Notes under the pieces: generated by a model
What the model was told of the DNA's origin: nothing
Databases searched by the model: none
What the model saw: the letters and a program-made list of their open reading frames with translations, nothing else
DNA from: Planctomycetota bacterium
GTDB lineage: Bacteria; Planctomycetota; Phycisphaerae; WQYP01
DNA: 36,515 nt
Assembly (NCBI GenBank): GCA_021808105.1
Contig: JAKBCC010000030.1
Span: 1-36,515 of the forward strand
Direction of reading: 5' to 3'
Part shown: one piece after another, positions 4,907 through 33,971 of the stretch
Position numbering within the stretch: position 1 is the stretch's first letter
Layout of the letters: the number at the start of each line of letters is the position of its first letter
Translations under genes and position numbers: made by a program

Positions 4907-4935
4907 TACCGCCGGTAAAGCCGGCGGTTTTGTGG
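4907..4935 (+). repeat. Dispersed palindromic repeat, ACCRCCGG family, copy 1 (terminator-like)
   Basis: TACCGCCGGTAAAGCCGGCGGTTTTGTGG; same pattern at 18938 and 28781. Confidence 0.75.
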
Positions 4936-4980
4936 GGTTTCGCGCCAATCTATCTGGCTTCTTGGCGAAGCATCGCGTCA

Positions 4981-5051
4981 GAGCACCGTGGTGATAACCC
5001 GGTGGTTGGTTCGCAGCACTGGATCAACCACCGGATTATCATCCGGTGCTC
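4981..5051. repeat. 71 bp hairpin repeat, copy A
   Basis: gagcaccg...ccggtgctc; differs from copy B at 2 of 71 positions; 27-28 nt arms form a near-perfect inverted repeat. Confidence 0.9.
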
Positions 5052-5109
5052 GGCAAGCCGCGGTAACGATGGGGTGATTTTTAGCGTATTCGCTGAGCTT
5101 CGCGTCATA

Positions 5110-5180
5110 GAGCACCGTGGTGATAACCCGGTGGTTGGTTCGCGGCATTGGATCAACCACCGGATTATCATCCGGTGCTC
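5110..5180. repeat. 71 bp hairpin repeat, copy B
   Basis: Direct repeat of 4981-5051 in the same orientation, with the same internal inverted repeat. Confidence 0.9.
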
Positions 5181-7336: not shown

Positions 7337-7621
7337 TCAGGCCGAAACAGTAGCGGGAATCGCCGCCGCTGCCCCGGAATCGGTGGCTGTTTTCAGCAAT
7401 CCGGCAACCGTATCGCTGGGCAAAGCGCCAACTTTAATCCAATGTTCCACCCGCGCCTTGTTGACCACCACGCGCCGCGCGGGGTCCTTGGAAATGGGAT
7501 CATAATAGCCCAATTCTTCAATGACCTTGCCATCCCGCGGAGAACGGTGATCCACCGCATTTATACGCCAGAATGCACGATTTTTACGACCAAAGCGCTT
7601 TAAACGAATCTTTACTGCCAC
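7337..7621 (-). CDS. rpsP: 30S ribosomal protein S16
   Basis: VAVKIRLKRFGRKNRAFWRINAVDHRSPRDGKVIEELGYYDP; GTG start at 7621 inferred (ORF track extends to 7675). Confidence 0.95.
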   Translation of the reverse strand: MAVKIRLKRFGRKNRAFWRINAVDHRSPRDGKVIEELGYYDPISKDPARRVVVNKARVEHWIKVGALPSDTVAGLLKTATDSGAAAAIPATVSA

Positions 7622-7808
7622 GCGATACCTCGTTTGCCTGCTTGATGAATCCACCCGATGCGCCCCATGCACCACGCACCGGAGATCAACATCAGATTTT
7701 TCATCAGCCCGATGCCGGAAACCCCTGTTCCCGACCCATCGGTAAACCCAAGATATTACCCGCCAACGCCAACGCTTTCAAGCGCCCGCCGCAACCACAC
7801 CCAAAAAA

Positions 7809-7936
7809 GGGCGTGGCCATTTTTCCGGGCTGGGTAAAAAGCCGCCTTTTCACAGGAATGCTGAAGCCCACCGGGATAAACCCGGCGGCTCGCCGGTCGA
7901 GTTGATGCGGGGTGCCCGGAAATATTGCCACACCCC
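7809..7936 (+). mobile_element. MITE-like non-autonomous element, copy 1
   Basis: 127-128 bp; TIRs GGGCGTGGCCATTTTTCCGGGC and GCCCGGAAATATTGCCACACCC (19/22 complementary); flanked by CCAAAAAA (7801-7808 and 7937-7944; 9 bp if CCCAAAAAA is counted); ~96% identical to 30180-30307. Confidence 0.85.
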
Positions 7937-7938
7937 CC

Positions 7939-7962
7939 AAAAAAGGTGTCAGGTACCTTTAA
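7939..7962. repeat. GGTGTCAGGTACC palindromic motif, copy 1
   Basis: AAAAAAGGTGTCAGGTACCTTTAA; also at 15276-15321 (two arms) and 33951-33971. Confidence 0.8.
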
Positions 7963-15275: not shown

Positions 15276-15321
15276 AAAGGTGTCAGGTACCTTTTTTCAA
15301 AAAAAGGTACCTGACACCTTT
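15276..15321. repeat. Perfect 22 bp-arm palindrome made of two inverted GGTGTCAGGTACC motifs
   Basis: AAAGGTGTCAGGTACCTTTTTT ca AAAAAAGGTACCTGACACCTTT. Confidence 0.95.
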
Positions 15322-18937: not shown

Positions 18938-18967
18938 TACCACCGGCATAGCCGGCGGCTTTGTGAC
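18938..18967 (+). repeat. Dispersed palindromic repeat, ACCRCCGG family, copy 2
   Basis: TACCACCGGCATAGCCGGCGGCTTTGTGAC. Confidence 0.85.
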
Positions 18968-21092: not shown

Positions 21093-21111
21093 AACTGTCC
21101 TCAAGCTGGAA

Positions 21112-21272
21112 CCTGGAATTTGGAACCTGGAACCTGGAATTTAGCATCTCGCATTCTGCATTCTGCCAAAGCGAAGCGCTTCCACATTCTAACTCCTAAC
21201 TCCCAGGTTCTGCGTCCTCGTCCAACTCCTAACTCCCGTAACCCGTAACCTGTAACCTGTCCCCTGTAACCT
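21112..21272 (+). repeat. Composite heptamer tandem-repeat array 1
   Basis: Modules (GGAACCT)n, (GCATCTC/GCATTCT)n, GCGAAGCGCTTCCACATTCT core, (CTAACTC)n, (GTAACCT)n; lies between glgB and proA. Confidence 0.9.
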
Positions 21273-22590
21273 ACCTCCGCACGTGCCCATTGCCTGTCAC
21301 AATAAACTTATACGTGCACAAGTCCGCTGCCCCCATGGGGCCACGGGCATGGAGTTTATCCGTGCTGATGCCGATTTCCGCGCCCAATCCGTATTCAAAT
21401 CCATCGGCCCAGCGGGTGGACGCGTTGACCATCACGCTGGCGGAATCCACGTTCTGGATGAATTTATTGGCTGCGGCAATATCGCCGGTAATAATGGCAT
21501 CGGTGTGTTGTGAACCATATTGCGTGATATGGGCAATGGCTTCGTCAATCGAATTCACCTGCTTGATGGCCACAATCAAATCCAGATATTCCGCTCCCCA
21601 GTCGGATTCCACCGCCAGTTTGGCGGTTTGCAAAAGCCCCTGGCTGCGGGCATCAGCCCGCATTTCCACTTTGGCTTCCCGGAACTTGGCCGCCAGGCGG
21701 GGCAGAATGCGGGCGGAAATATCCTGATGAACAAGAATACATTCCGCGGTATTGCACACCGCGCAGCCGTCCACCTTCGCACTGACTGCCACCGCCACAG
21801 CCATATCGACATCTGCATATTTATCAATATAAATATGACATACGCCTTTATAATGCTTGATCACCGGAATCGTCGCCTGCTCCACCACCGCCCGAATCAG
21901 GGATTCTCCGCCGCGCGGAATGGCCAGGTCCACCAGGCCCTCTGCGGTAACCAGCACGCCCACGGCCGCACGGTCCGTCGTGGCGATCAACTGCACCGCG
22001 TTGGGATCCACGTGTGCGGCCAGCAGAGCTTCACGGATGATTTTGGCGATCGCCTGATTACTGTGGACCGATTCCTTGCCGCCCCGCAGGATGCATGCAT
22101 TGCCGCTTTTCAGGCACAGGGCCGCTGCATCGCTTGTGACATTGGGGCGGCTTTCATAAATGATGGCAATAACGCCAATGGGCACGCGGCGTTTTTCAAT
22201 CCGCAGGCCATTGGGGCGGTCGTACGCCTCCAGGGTTTGGCCCACCGGATCGGTCTGCCCCGCGATTTCCCGCACACTGGCGGCCATGGCTTCGATTTTT
22301 TTCTCAGATAAAGTCAGGCGGGAAATCAGAGGCAACGCCAGATTGCTGTTTTTGGCCTCCCGCAAATCCATCAAATTGGCCGCCAGCACTTCAGCTTGAC
22401 CGGCGATCAGGCCATCAGCAATTCGCAGCAGAGCCGCATTGCGGACATTCCCACTCAACGCGGCCAACTGCCGCGCCGCCAGCCGTGCCTGCCGCGCCAT
22501 GCGCAAAACTTCCTGCGTAACATCCGCCGACTCGGTCATTGGCATACCCGCCGGTCCATTTTCAACATTCCGTTCCGTGGCACTTTCCAT
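21271..22590 (-). CDS. proA: Glutamate-5-semialdehyde dehydrogenase (gamma-glutamyl phosphate reductase)
   Basis: RRVPIGVIAIIYESRPNVTSDAAALCLKSGNACILRGGKE, GVCHIYIDKYADVDMA, ASTRWADGFEYGLGAEIGISTDKLHARGPMG. Confidence 0.97.
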   Translation of the reverse strand: MESATERNVENGPAGMPMTESADVTQEVLRMARQARLAARQLAALSGNVRNAALLRIADGLIAGQAEVLAANLMDLREAKNSNLALPLISRLTLSEKKIEAMAASVREIAGQTDPVGQTLEAYDRPNGLRIEKRRVPIGVIAIIYESRPNVTSDAAALCLKSGNACILRGGKESVHSNQAIAKIIREALLAAHVDPNAVQLIATTDRAAVGVLVTAEGLVDLAIPRGGESLIRAVVEQATIPVIKHYKGVCHIYIDKYADVDMAVAVAVSAKVDGCAVCNTAECILVHQDISARILPRLAAKFREAKVEMRADARSQGLLQTAKLAVESDWGAEYLDLIVAIKQVNSIDEAIAHITQYGSQHTDAIITGDIAAANKFIQNVDSASVMVNASTRWADGFEYGLGAEIGISTDKLHARGPMGAADLCTYKFIVTGNGHVRR

Positions 22591-22696: not shown

Positions 22697-22890
22697 AGTT
22701 AGGAGTTAGAAGGCGACTTAGGTTACAGGTTACAGGTTACAGGTGACGGGGGACAGGAGTTGGGAGTTAGAATGTGGAAGCGCTTTGCTTTTGCAGTGTG
22801 CACAATGCCAGATGCCAGATGCAAGATGCAAGATGCTAAGTTCCGCGTACCAGTTTCCACGCCAAATTCCCCAAGTTCCAAATCCCCCGC
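22697..22890 (-). repeat. Composite heptamer tandem-repeat array 2 (inverted relative to array 1)
   Basis: (GGTTACA)n, (GGAGTTA)n, AGAATGTGGAAGCGCTTTGC core (22769-22788), (GATGCCA/GATGCAA)n, degenerate AAGTTCC units. Confidence 0.85.
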
Positions 22891-23249: not shown

Positions 23250-24182
23250 ATGAAGCGCTCGGAAAAACATCAAGGATTCACCCTTATCGAGCTGCTGGTG
23301 GTGATCTCCATCATCGCCCTGCTCATCGCATTGTTATTGCCGGCATTGGCAAGGGCGAAGGACGATGCCAATTCAATTGCATGCCAAGCAAGTTTGCGCT
23401 CGATGGGGCAGTTGTCCATGGAGTACGCGGCCTCGTATGAGGACGCGCTTCCGCCCAGCGTGGTTGGCAAATATGGAGCTGGCACGTGGATAGATTTACT
23501 GTTCCAGATGTACGCAGGCGCTCCGGTTGAGCTTAACACGACCGGCAGCTATTATTATGGCGCATGGCACAACGGATTTATCGCCTACAGCGTAAACAAG
23601 ACCCAGGCGCTGGCCTACTCGCAGAAATTCAACGGCCTCTTTATTGACCCGTCCAGCGTGGTCCAACGAGCGCATAACTGGGATAATTCATACGCTGCCA
23701 ACCCGAACGTATTTATCAACAACGGTGCCTATAATCCCACGAATCCGCCGTCGTATTGGCCGCAGGTTAAAATATTGAAGGTCGCGCAGATCCCCAATCC
23801 GGCCCATGTGTATATGGTTGCTGACTCCAACCTTCCGTACGCCGGTGGTTACGGCTGGCCGGAAAATGATTGGATGCAGTACACTTACCAAGTGCAAGCG
23901 GACACGATTGGCACCTACTCAGCGGTTTCTGACCTGAACCCGGCGTGTTATTACGGCACTGCCAACGAGGACGCAACGAAGTCAACCCTGCGCCCGGGAA
24001 TCCGTTTTCGGCATATGGAATATTCGCTTAACGGTGGTTACGCCAACATGGTGTTTGCCGACGGGCACGCAGCGTCGGTACGCGCCGGGAATCTCCACCC
24101 GGAGAACGTATTGCTCGACCCCTTTGTCAACGTCTATTGGTCGACCAGCGGTGGAAAAGTGGCTTATCCGTACATTCCTTAA
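23250..24182 (+). CDS. Prepilin-type N-terminal methylation domain protein, H-X9-DG family (paralog 1)
   Basis: [30 protein letters not shown] class III signal; C-terminal [31 protein letters not shown]. Confidence 0.93.
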   Translation: MKRSEKHQGFTLIELLVVISIIALLIALLLPALARAKDDANSIACQASLRSMGQLSMEYAASYEDALPPSVVGKYGAGTWIDLLFQMYAGAPVELNTTGSYYYGAWHNGFIAYSVNKTQALAYSQKFNGLFIDPSSVVQRAHNWDNSYAANPNVFINNGAYNPTNPPSYWPQVKILKVAQIPNPAHVYMVADSNLPYAGGYGWPENDWMQYTYQVQADTIGTYSAVSDLNPACYYGTANEDATKSTLRPGIRFRHMEYSLNGGYANMVFADGHAASVRAGNLHPENVLLDPFVNVYWSTSGGKVAYPYIP

Positions 24183-27637: not shown

Positions 27638-28570
27638 ATGAAGCGCTTGGAAAAACATCAGGGATTCACCCTTATTGAGCTGCTGGTGGTGATCTCCATC
27701 ATCGCGCTGCTCATCGCTCTGTTATTGCCCGCGCTGGCAAGGGCGAAGGATGAGGCTAACTCAATCGGCTGCCAAGCGAGGCTGCGTTCGCTGGGGCAAA
27801 TCACGCTCGAGTATTCCTCGTCCTATGAGGACGCGATACCCCCCAACTCGGTGAACTATGAAGGGGTCTGGATCGACCTCTTGTTTCAAATGTACGCTGG
27901 CCCACCGGTAACAGTCAACGAGGGCCAGAAATCGGGTGCCGTGGCCCCGAATAACGGCTACTGGGAGGGCGCATGGCACAATGGATTCATTTCATTTAAT
28001 TCAAAAATACAATCTTCAGCCTATGAGCTCAAGTACAATGGGCTGTTTATGGATCCAGCCAGCACGATGCAAATTGGGCATAAATGGGACAACTCCTATG
28101 CCGCCAATCCGCAGGTGTTCATCCTAAACCCGAACTACGGTAGCAAGGCACCCGAGCTTCAGGTGCTGAAGTCGGCACAAATCCCCAACCCAAGCCATGT
28201 TTTCATGATTGCGGATAGCTCCCTGTGGTACGGCGGCGCGGGTTGGCCTGATTTTGACAATATGCAATACACTTACCAGATTAAGGCCGACTGTTTAGGC
28301 CCCTATTCTCCAACTGCGGATATGAACCCGAACTGCTATTACAACACCGGCAATACCGATCTCCCGGGCGGAGGAAAAGCTCCTGGGATTCGCTACCGCC
28401 ATATGGAAACCAACCAGAATAATGGAAATGCGAACATGGTATTTGCCGACGGCCACGCCTCCACCGTCCAATTCGGGAATCTCCACCCTGAAAACGTCCT
28501 TCTGGACCCGGGCGTTAATGTCTACTATTCCAACGGCGGAGGGAACGTTGCCTACCCCTACCTGCCGTAA
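27638..28570 (+). CDS. Prepilin-type N-terminal methylation domain protein, H-X9-DG family (paralog 2)
   Basis: N-terminal ~40 aa near-identical to the 23250 gene; same C-terminal [11 protein letters not shown]...[26 protein letters not shown]. Confidence 0.93.
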
Positions 28571-28632: not shown

Positions 28633-28683
28633 TTCTCCGAAAAGTAATCCTTTGGTGACGGCGGAAACAGATGAACGCCGCGG

Positions 28684-28860
<177 letters not shown>

Positions 28861-28873
28861 GCCGTCGGCCGCC

Positions 28874-29292: not shown

Positions 29293-29384
29293 GGCAAGTC
29301 GGGCTGCGGCCCGACAGAGCAGGAGAATTTAGACAGGTGAACAGTAGAGCAAATTCGGCTGGCGCAAAAGAGTGGCTGTCGCCG
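29293..29384 (+). repeat. ~90 bp direct repeat, copy 1
   Basis: ggcaagtcgggctgcggcccgacagagcag...agacaggtgaacagtagagcaaa...gagtggctgtcgcc. Confidence 0.85.
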
Positions 29385-29434
29385 AGCCGAGAACGCCCTC
29401 CTGCGGTCACCTGATCACCTGTTCACCTGATCTC

Positions 29435-29524
29435 GGCAAGTCGGGCTGCGGCCCGACAGAGCAGATGTTAGACAGGTGAGCAGTAGAGCAAATAATGCTG
29501 GTGCAAACGAGTGGCTGTCGCCGG
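29435..29524 (+). repeat. ~90 bp direct repeat, copy 2
   Basis: ggcaagtcgggctgcggcccgacagagcag...agacaggtgagcagtagagcaaa...gagtggctgtcgcc. Confidence 0.85.
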
Positions 29525-30171: not shown

Positions 30172-30179
30172 CCGTGGAC

Positions 30180-30307
30180 GGGCGTGGCAATTTTTCCGGG
30201 CGGGGTAAAAAAGCCGCCTTTTCACAGGAATGCTCAAGCCCACCGGGATAAACCCGGCGGCTCGCCGGTCGAGTTGATGCGGGGTGCCCGGAAATATTGC
30301 CACGCCC
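30180..30307 (+). mobile_element. MITE-like non-autonomous element, copy 2
   Basis: 128 bp; TIRs GGGCGTGGCAATTTTTCCGGGC and GCCCGGAAATATTGCCACGCCC (21/22 complementary); flanked by 8 bp direct repeats CCGTGGAC (30172-30179 and 30308-30315). Confidence 0.9.
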
Positions 30308-30406
30308 CCGTGGACGAAATAACTGGGGGCACTTTCGCGACGGCGCGATTTCTGATACAAACTTACAAGTTTTTTCCCCGACGCTGGTGTAAAAGGTTGT
30401 TGACCC

Positions 30407-33400
30407 ATGCCCAAAAGAACGGACATTAAAAGTATCCTGATCATCGGTTCCGGCCCCATTGTCATCGGACAGGGCTGTGAATTTGATTATTCCGGTACGC
30501 AGGCGTGCAAAGCTCTCAAAGAAGAGGGCTACCGCGTAATCCTGGTGAACTCCAACCCCGCCACCATCATGACTGATCCGGATATGGCCCACCGCACCTA
30601 TATTGAACCGCTGACCGTTGAAGCGGTCGCGAAAATCATTGAACTTGAACGCCCCGATGCCCTGCTGCCCACACTGGGCGGGCAGACCGGTCTGAATTTA
30701 TCCGTGGCACTGGAAGATGCAGGCATCCTGAAAAAATTCGGCGTGCAGATGATCGGTGCCACGCGGGAAGCGATTCATCGTGGGGAAGATCGTCGCAAAT
30801 TCAAAGCCATTATGGAATCCATCGGCTTGCAATGTCCGCGTAGCGGCCTGGCCTACAACATGGAACAGGCCAAAAAGGTGGCCGAGGAGGTCGGGCTGCC
30901 CTGTATTATCCGTGCGTCGTTTACGCTTGGCGGCACCGGGTCCGGCGTGGCGTGGAACATGGAGGAATTTGAAATTATCGCCCAGCGCGGCATCGACGCC
31001 TCGATGATTAATGAAATTCAGATTGATCAATCCCTGATCGGCTGGAAGGAATATGAACTGGAAGTCATGCGCGACAAAGCCGACAACGTGGTGATTGTCT
31101 GCAGCATTGAAAATTTTGATCCCATGGGCGTACACACCGGAGATTCCATCACGGTCGCCCCGGCCCAAACCCTCACGGATAAAGAATATCAACGCATGCG
31201 CGACGGGGCCATTGCGGTTATCCGGGCCATTGGCGTGGAAACCGGCGGCTCCAATATTCAATTTGCCATCAACCCCGCCAATGGCGATATGGTGGTGGTG
31301 GAAATGAATCCGCGCGTGTCACGCTCCAGTGCGTTAGCCAGCAAAGCTACAGGCTTTCCCATTGCGCGTATTGCCGCGAAGTTGGCGGTGGGTTACACGC
31401 TGGATGAACTGCCCAATGACATCACGCGCCGCACCGTGGCCTGTTTTGAACCCTCCATCGATTATGTGGTGGTAAAAATTCCGCGCTGGACTTTTGAAAA
31501 ATTCCCGGATGCCGATGAAACCCTCACAACCCAGATGAAAAGCGTCGGCGAAGCCATGAGCATTGGCCGGACGTTTAAGGAAGCATTGCAGAAAGGCATT
31601 CGTTCCATGGAAGTCAAACGGTTTGGCCTGGGGCTGGATCGCATTGATAAATGGTGGCGAAGACAAGTACTGGAACTTGACGTGCAACCAGCTTCCGTGC
31701 CATCGAGTCTGGGAGATCGCGGTGCGTTTGTTACCCGCACGGCGGCACTGGAGGAAGCGGCGCAAATTTGGCCCATACCGGAAGACCGGTTAAGGCGGAA
31801 ATTATCCATTCCGTCGCAGGGCCGGCCGTATTACATCCGGTACGCCTTCAAAATGGGTTATACGCTGGAACGGGTGCATGAACTGACGCATATTGATCCC
31901 TGGTTTCTCGCCCAGATGAAGGAACTCGTTGATTTTGAAAAAGTATTATTTGAGTTGCGCCCGCAGGCCGCCGCGTTTATGGCCGGTAAAATTTCCCCGG
32001 AAGATCGGCAGCATTTCGCCGCACTGTTGCGCCGCAGCAAGGAAATGGGATACTCCGATGTGCAGTTGGGCACCATCTGGTCCCTGCAGCCTGCGGATGT
32101 CCGGGGCATCCGCAAGCGTCTGACCATTGAGCCGGTGTATAAACTTGTCGATACGTGTGCCGCGGAATTTGAAGCGGCCACACCCTATTATTATTCCACC
32201 TATGAAAGTCCGATCACCCGGCTGGAGGGCGGTCGATCCATGCAGCAGGTGGATGATGAAGTGCGCATTACGGATCGCAAAAAAATTATTATTCTCGGCG
32301 GCGGGCCGAATCGCATCGGGCAGGGCATCGAATTTGATTACTGCTGCGTGCAGGCGGCCTTTGCATGTCGGGAATTGGACCTTGAAAGCGTGATGATCAA
32401 TTCCAATCCGGAAACCGTCAGCACGGATTATGACACATCCAATCTTCTGTTTTTTGAGCCATTGACGCATGAAGATGTGTTGAACATTGTGGAACGCCTG
32501 AATGGCCGTCCCTTAAGCCAGCCGGGGGGACTGGTGCAGGGCGTTATTGTGCAATTTGGCGGTCAAACCCCGTTGAATCTCGCCCGCGGACTTAAAGATG
32601 CGGGCGTGCCGATTATCGGCACGGCGGTAGAGTCCATTGAAGCTGCGGAAGACCGGGATAAGTTTAATCGCCTGATAAAATCTCTGGGCCTTAAGCAGCC
32701 TGAGGGCGGTATTGCCCGCAGTGCCGAGCAGGCCCGCAAGGTGGCTGCGGAAATCGGTTATCCGGTGCTGGTGCGTCCGTCGTTTGTTCTGGGCGGCCGG
32801 GCCATGGAAATTGTGTCCGATGAAACGCAGTTGGATTATTACATCCGTCATGCCGTGGAAGTTGCGGATGAACATCCGATTCTTATTGACCGTTTCCTCG
32901 GCGATGCCACGGAGGTGGATGTCGATGCGTTGGGTGATGGCACAAATTATCTGGTGATCGGGGTGATGGAACACATTGAGGAAGCGGGAATTCATTCCGG
33001 TGATTCCGCGTGTTCTCTGCCGCCGTTCAGTCTGCCGGCGGAAATTGTGGCCCGCATTCATGATAACGCGCTGGCGCTGGCCAAGGCGTTGGCGGTGCGC
33101 GGATTAATGAATGTGCAGTTCGCCATTAAAGATAATGAAGTCTATGTGCTGGAAGTCAATCCACGGGCCAGCCGCACGGTGCCGTTTGTCAGCAAAGCCA
33201 CGGGCGTGGCCTGGGCAAAAATTGCGGCGAAAGTCATGTGCGGAAAAACGTTGCCGGAGTTGGGCGTCACGGAAGAAATCATTCCGAAAAATCATGTCGC
33301 GGTGAAGGAAAGCGTATTTCCTTTCAACAAATTCCCCGGTGTAGATGTAATTTTAGGCCCGGAAATGCGATCCACCGGCGAAGTCATGGGCATTGATTCC

Positions 33401-33865
33401 AGCTTCCCGGTGGCCTACGCCAAATCGCAAATGGCGGCCGGCGGCAGTCTGCCGATGTCGGGAACCGTTTATATTTCCGTGCGCGATGGGGACAAAAAAG
33501 CGATTATCGAATCCGCCCGGAAAATTGCCCAGGCGGGTTTTGAACTCATTTCCACCAGCGGCACGTGCCAGGCGCTAAATGACGCGGGGGTGCCATGCCG
33601 GAAAATTAATAAAATTCAGGAAGGCCGTCCCAATATCATTGACGCCATTAAAAACCATCAGGTGCAGTTGTTAATTAATACCCCCACGCACAAAGGCCCC
33701 ACCACGGACGAAGGCCGCATTCGATCCGCCGCGGTGCTGAACCGAATTCCAATTATCACCACCGTGACCGGAGCCGAAGCCGCGGCGGATGCGATTGTGA
33801 GTCTTAAACAGGGCCAGTGGACGGTAAAGCCCATCCAGGATTATTACGCGCAAATGAAGCCGTAA
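30407..33865 (+). CDS. carB: Carbamoyl-phosphate synthase large subunit
   Basis: [50 protein letters not shown]; two ATP-grasp halves ([20 protein letters not shown]); 1152 aa. Confidence 0.98.
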
Positions 33866-33950: not shown

Positions 33951-33971
33951 AAAAAGGTGTCAGGTACCTTT
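33951..33971. repeat. GGTGTCAGGTACC palindromic motif, copy at convergent carB/GT2 gap
   Basis: AAAAAGGTGTCAGGTACCTTT. Confidence 0.85.

Follow-up and report, generated by a model that had tools for sequence, protein, structure and literature searches.

A MITE family of uncultured planctomycetes shares its ends with an ISKra4-like insertion sequence and lies at a fixed distance upstream of predicted sigma70 promoters

To our knowledge, promoter-directed insertion is rare among bacterial transposons. It is already known for Mutator-like prokaryotic elements, namely TnGBS, ISLre2 and some ISKra4 elements. In the ISKra4 group, some members are inserted upstream of sigmaA promoters, which can adjoin either side of the element, and the known promoter-targeting relatives do so at a distance of 13-17 bp (Guerillot et al. 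2014, PMC3942029). Within p-MULT 4 (ISKra4, ISMich2 and ISAzba1), promoter targeting is reported there only in the ISKra4 group, for which a frameshift is unreported; ISMich2 has a -1 shift, and a D(2)H motif is described for prokaryotic Mutator-like transposases (PMC3942029).

The locus compared here with these systems lies in a 36,515-nucleotide stretch of DNA, hereafter the window (Table 1); within its planctomycete assembly, which totals 3.86 Mb, it is contig C31. A preliminary description had identified a MITE upstream of rpsP as the second copy of an element that also lies upstream of carB. The rpsP-side element is indeed a MITE: it ends in imperfect inverted repeats (GGGCGTGGCCATTTTTCCGGG / GGGTGTGGCAATATTTCCGGG), is flanked by a target duplication (TSD), contains no transposase gene and belongs to a set of about 27 near-identical genome copies of a 128-bp unit. 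Of the span originally given to it, 7809-7936, the start was retained and the end was corrected, as the element stops at 7935 and base 7936 opens the right-hand duplication. The duplicated flanks were also as described (CCCAAAAAA on both sides, exact over 9 bp), and alignment recovered the same four substitutions and one A-run indel between the rpsP-side and carB-side copies. Because each of the two copies has its own intact duplication, recombination between them was rejected. The rpsP-side feature is a member of a large non-coding transposon family in uncultured planctomycetes.

Table 1. Coordinates of the features discussed, in positions of the window
Feature	Position	Strand	Remarks
rpsP (bS16)	7337..7621	-	GTG at 7621 is the likely start
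-10 box of the rpsP promoter, TAATAT	7753..7758	-	17-bp spacer
-35 box of the rpsP promoter, TTGAAA	7776..7781	-	first base 28 bp from MITE edge
Left TSD of rpsP-side MITE, CCCAAAAAA	7800..7808	.	promoter-proximal; exact over 9 bp
rpsP-side MITE copy, 127 bp	7809..7935	+	imperfect terminal inverted repeats of ~21 bp; window sequence, genome BLAST
Right TSD of rpsP-side MITE, CCCAAAAAA	7936..7944	.	promoter-distal; A-run 7939-7944 doubles as REP left edge
REP, AAAAAAGGTGTCAGGTACCTTT	7939..7960	+	one of ~109 in the genome; core exact over 7943-7959
Inverted pair of REP cores	15277..15320	.	
Left TSD of carB-side MITE, CCGTGGAC	30172..30179	.	
carB-side sister copy of the MITE, 128 bp	30180..30307	+	empty allele in six congeneric genomes
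Right TSD of carB-side MITE, CCGTGGAC	30308..30315	.	
Weaker promoter-like sequence of carB, TTTCGC-17-TACAAA	30333..30361	+	-35 start 26 bp from MITE edge
carB	30407..33865	+	
Single REP core	33954..33970	+	

Genome-wide BLAST recovered 27 full or nearly full copies in the own genome. In the 25 copies with both flanks readable, the left and right 8-bp flanks agreed on average at 6.0 of 8 positions, compared with 2.0 for mismatched pairs, which establishes transposition with duplication. The duplications are mostly exact or nearly exact over 8 bp, with two or three copies fitting 9 bp better, and those of the other copies have no sequence in common. The terminal repeat alone gave 131 genome matches at up to three mismatches against 2 for a reversed-pattern control, so chance is excluded, and it also bounds members of other subfamilies, about 119, 163 and 184 bp long, whose interiors differ. 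The central hairpin of the MITE was considered as a separate dispersed repeat and rejected, as 27 of its 30 matches lie inside MITE copies and 3 (contig C132) outside. The terminal repeat is common across the taxonomic family, with matches in 24 of 120 relative genomes, nearly all of family f1, and is next to absent from the rest of the class; in a named genome collection, the exact element-end matches among those listed were all from assemblies labelled Planctomycetota, Phycisphaerales or Phycisphaera. Every genome compared is a metagenome assembly, and some of the copies located where a contig ends, such as L002, are possibly misjoined. Two MITE copies 2.8 kb apart (L008 and L024; G000:C100:2865-2992 and 1-108) have the right flank GAAAGCGTTAGGC in common, and the MITE-bearing segment was therefore either duplicated after insertion or misassembled.

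The comparison with empty sites that the preliminary description had called for was run on the carB copy. The two carB flanks, joined into a 963-bp query, aligned without a break to six congeneric genomes (G002-G007) at 83-87% identity; apart from local divergence at a few bases, the relatives lack only the MITE and a single copy of its duplication. This clean empty allele is strong evidence that the carB-side MITE arrived by insertion. At rpsP, homology to the relatives stops immediately upstream of the promoter, and farther out the sequence is non-syntenic in every congeneric genome; the predicted empty site would be CACACCCAAAAAAGGTGTCAGGTACCTTTAATTTGG. In two congeneric genomes (L177 in G003 and L178 in G005) carB lies directly upstream of rpsP, while the two genes are 22 kb apart here; their separation in this genome is a rearrangement at the locus of the rpsP-side MITE.

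The ends of the MITE are shared with a longer element. More specifically, a related genome (G024:C66:62248-63813) contains a 1566-bp insertion sequence (IS) with the 21-bp repeat of the MITE at both ends (one mismatch to the MITE pattern), an 8-bp TSD, TTTTTGAA, and two overlapping ORFs, and related IS in G025, G023, G017 and G011 have the same repeat (0-1 mismatch) at one readable end. The long ORF of the G024 element has NF033572 (ISKra4) as its best match (E 2.5e-42, 145 bits against a curated cut-off of 205), and its transposase also matches PF06782 (UPF0236) above the cut-off of that profile. Residues D140, D236, D257-H260 and E350, which together form a Mutator-like D/D/E triad with a D(2)H motif, are invariant in four transposase homologues; the D(2)H motif follows D236 by 21 residues, compared with 11-19 in PMC3942029. 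The repeats and duplications fall within the ISKra4-family ranges of 18-39 bp and 8-9 bp (TTTTTGAA in G024, AAATTAGA in a relative from the own genome). ORF2 lies in the +1 frame relative to ORF1 in four elements (L094 659-2087, L107, L109 and L117), not in the -1 relation that joins the two ORFs of the ISMich2 group; in L094 this lies near a TTTTTCCCCC run. The parent of the MITE is, judging from these sequence comparisons, a putative two-ORF ISKra4-like (Mutator-like DDE) IS of related genomes. An origin of the MITE by simple internal deletion from this IS was ruled out, as the two have only the terminal repeats in common. No cognate transposase was found in the own assembly (94.6% complete), where the sole relative is 42% identical and has different ends and the TSD AAATTAGA; mobilisation by the ISKra4-like IS lineage is accordingly inferred from the shared ends.

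The position of the elements relative to promoters was assessed on junctions, defined as the borders between terminal repeat and genome at every fetched locus, with junctions alike in their first 40 bp merged (n=249); promoters are predicted, as matches to the sigma70 consensus. Without any promoter model, the bases T, T and G were enriched 27-29 bp outside the element and positions 51-55 were A/T-rich. A TTG (-35) starting 26-28 bp outside the element was present at 61 of 249 junctions against about 14 expected from positions 41-140, and a TANNNT (-10) at 49-51 bp was present at 65 against about 7 expected. The boxes point away from the element, and promoters pointing towards it showed no distance peak at the same 249 junctions. 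Promoters scoring at least 9/12 started at 25-30 bp at 39 junctions, compared with 0-4 in equal-width windows farther out. The signal was replicated in 65 junctions from 60 later-fetched stretches (TTG, p 0.001; TANNNT, p 1e-10), and was present in each of six length classes. Across 314 junctions, 104 promoters scoring 8/12 or better fell in the bin of 5 bp at 26-30 bp, compared with about 11 in each of the others. Full-length copies of the IS show this spacing too, with TTGACA-17-TAAAAT at 27 bp in G025 and TTGCGT-18-TATACT at 26 bp in G024. From these counts we estimate that a promoter can be recognised beside one end in roughly half of the elements and beside neither end in the other half. 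No MITE copy lies between convergent genes among those with a clear gene layout, the layout being a crude one drawn from ORFs.

These results establish a fixed promoter distance, and with it the location of both window copies in the 5' regions of core genes, which was the most informative remark of the preliminary description, turns out to be the real signal, that of fixed spacing upstream of a sigma70 promoter. The opposite orientation relative to the gene, remarked on in the same place, does not extend to a rule, as the MITE can have either of its ends towards the promoter. The rpsP promoter is kept in five congeneric genomes and degenerate in a sixth, and the MITE is absent there in all six; because the promoter is present in relatives without the MITE, it is older than the insertion. 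The carB promoter-like sequence, which scored 7/12 one base further on, lies in a block that is also conserved in relatives without the MITE.

A fixed promoter spacing, together with an internal hairpin whose DNA fold is stable (z -2.6), is also what a host-useful regulatory module, promoter-boosting or terminating and kept upstream of core genes, could show. We consider this improbable, since congeneric genomes have these carB and rpsP promoters without the MITE, the promoter is faced by either end of the element, the same spacing recurs in full-length IS copies and an Rfam search of the window gave no match. Less probable still is random insertion followed by selection that purges copies from genes and promoters and so leaves those in 5' intergenic DNA. 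Wherever the case can be interpreted, MITE copies lie between genes, as purging predicts, but purging would leave a broad range of distances, whereas the observed peak at 26-28 bp is 3 bp wide, and REPs, which are also dispersed, show no promoter-distance peak at their edges under the same treatment. The merging of junctions alike in their first 40 bp counters a longer shared repeat as the source of the peak.

The rpsP-side MITE adjoins a second kind of repeat. The motif GGTGTCAGGTACC had been noted at two other loci of the window, and both were recovered (an inverted pair at 15277/15304 and a single copy at 33954). Genome-wide, AAGGTGTCAGGTACCTT gave 109 matches at up to two mismatches against 1 in the control, with inverted pairs frequent, and the consensus carries A-runs on its left flank and T-runs on its right. 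A Y1 transposase gene (G000:C171:1069-1422) has copies on both sides, six of them within 800 bp, and the GGTGTCAGGTACC repeat is for this reason best called a REP with a RAYT-like (Y1) partner. It resembles REP/RAYT systems in being a short imperfect palindrome with about 109 copies, in its inverted pairs and in its clustering round one Y1 gene, and differs from the MITE in having neither IS terminal repeats nor a fixed promoter distance. As previously proposed, the MITE is nested in a pre-existing repeat: the A-run belongs to the REP consensus and recurs in both of the duplications that flank the MITE, so the edge of the REP was already in place before the MITE arrived. The further suggestion, that MITE copies prefer A-runs or the REP motif (GGTGTC) and that nesting reflects target choice, is the least probable of the alternatives, for although the rpsP copy sits at a REP A-run and a REP core lies within about 20 bp of 3 of 27 MITE copies (none in other distance bins up to 1300 bp), a 5-base A/T run occurs in the first 8 bp at only 7 of 314 junctions against 5.7 expected, a REP core lies within 80 bp of 2 of 314 junctions and the TSDs of other copies share no sequence. 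Nesting in the REP is incidental and the A-run a coincidence of position; what fixes the landing site is the promoter and not the interrupted A-rich repeat.

The window contains several other repeats. A dispersed hairpin repeat, CCACCGGCAnAGCCGGCGGCTTTGTGA, lies downstream of genes at 4907-4936, 18938-18967 and 28781-28810, and a similar hairpin is found inside the 163- and 184-bp MITE subfamilies, as if captured. Two 72-bp copies (4980-5051 and 5109-5180; 97% identical, starts 129 bp apart) each have internal inverted symmetry. Three intergenic sites (21103-21274, 22714-22856 and 28665-28864) consist of short-unit arrays (GGAACCT/GGAATTT, GTAACCT) followed by GCATCTCGCATTCTGCA, and a pair of diverged direct repeats, about 64 bp long and spaced by 139 bp, lies at 29293-29523, preceded by an identical 30-bp hairpin. 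Paralogous pseudopilin-like genes with an N-terminal methylation motif (23250-24182 and 27638-28570) flank a large glycine/alanine-rich PEP-CTERM-like protein.

Among described systems, the closest are ISKra4, ISMich2 and ISAzba1 (p-MULT 4), which resemble the present elements in transposase profile match (here below the curated cut-off), D/D/E with D(2)H, near-symmetric repeats of about 21 bp and 8-9 bp duplications. A promoter facing either end is likewise seen in ISKra4-group elements with symmetric repeats. The present elements, like the promoter-targeting p-MULT groups, keep a sigma promoter at a fixed distance from the repeat end, but the p-MULT 4 -35 box lies at 13-17 bp, where we found no promoter excess, and the present peak at 26-28 bp is about 10 bp farther, while the convention for the -35 position in PMC3942029 may differ from ours by a few bases, hardly by ten. 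Furthermore, the two-ORF +1 transposase fits neither the ISKra4 group nor ISMich2 (-1), and most of the present copies are gene-less MITEs, unlike the p-MULT 4 insertion sequences. The TnGBS conjugative transposons and ISLre2 (p-MULT 3) also have a Mutator-like transposase and a fixed distance upstream of sigmaA promoters; theirs is 15-17 bp, with oriented insertion and mostly in Firmicutes, whereas the present elements show no orientation bias and belong to Planctomycetota. In the open-access literature we found no earlier report of a MITE tied to ISKra4, ISLre2 or promoter targeting, and as far as that literature shows, a promoter-targeting MITE family with a spacing of about 26 bp and a two-ORF transposase in planctomycetes is new.

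We therefore propose, with considerable confidence, that the MITE derives from an ISKra4-like IS of Phycisphaerae-type planctomycetes, is mobilised in trans and inserts about 26 bp upstream of sigma70 promoters in either orientation. The transposase of a full-length relative would act in trans on the shared terminal repeats and make a staggered cut of 8-9 bp, leaving about 26 bp from the element end to the first -35 base; it would read either the promoter itself or the RNA polymerase bound there. Such an insertion would spare the -35 and -10 boxes, some 17-19 bp of single-copy upstream DNA and one copy of the duplication. Because the promoter boxes and the adjacent upstream DNA are left untouched, core genes such as rpsP and carB could be hit without loss of their promoter, and expression would presumably survive. 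At rpsP, the target point would have fallen on the A-run of an older REP, giving the nested look. The element edge would lie near -62 relative to the transcription start, a position that we take to be just beyond the usual upstream contacts of RNA polymerase. More tentatively, and with some doubt on our side, we hypothesize that a Phycisphaerae lineage of Mutator-like transposases recognises promoter-bound RNA polymerase and makes its cut a helical turn farther upstream than do TnGBS, ISLre2 and ISKra4, just outside the alpha-subunit contacts, and that its gene-less MITEs multiplied in a harmless niche, so that their copies mark active promoters in uncultured planctomycetes.

The second spacing class that this family provides, offset by about one helical turn from that already described, could separate models in which the transposase reads promoter DNA from those in which it touches RNA polymerase. 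Furthermore, with dozens of small copies in each genome tied to promoters, the family offers a map of probable sigma70 promoters drawn from sequence alone, which would be useful in a group for which hardly any transcript data exist.
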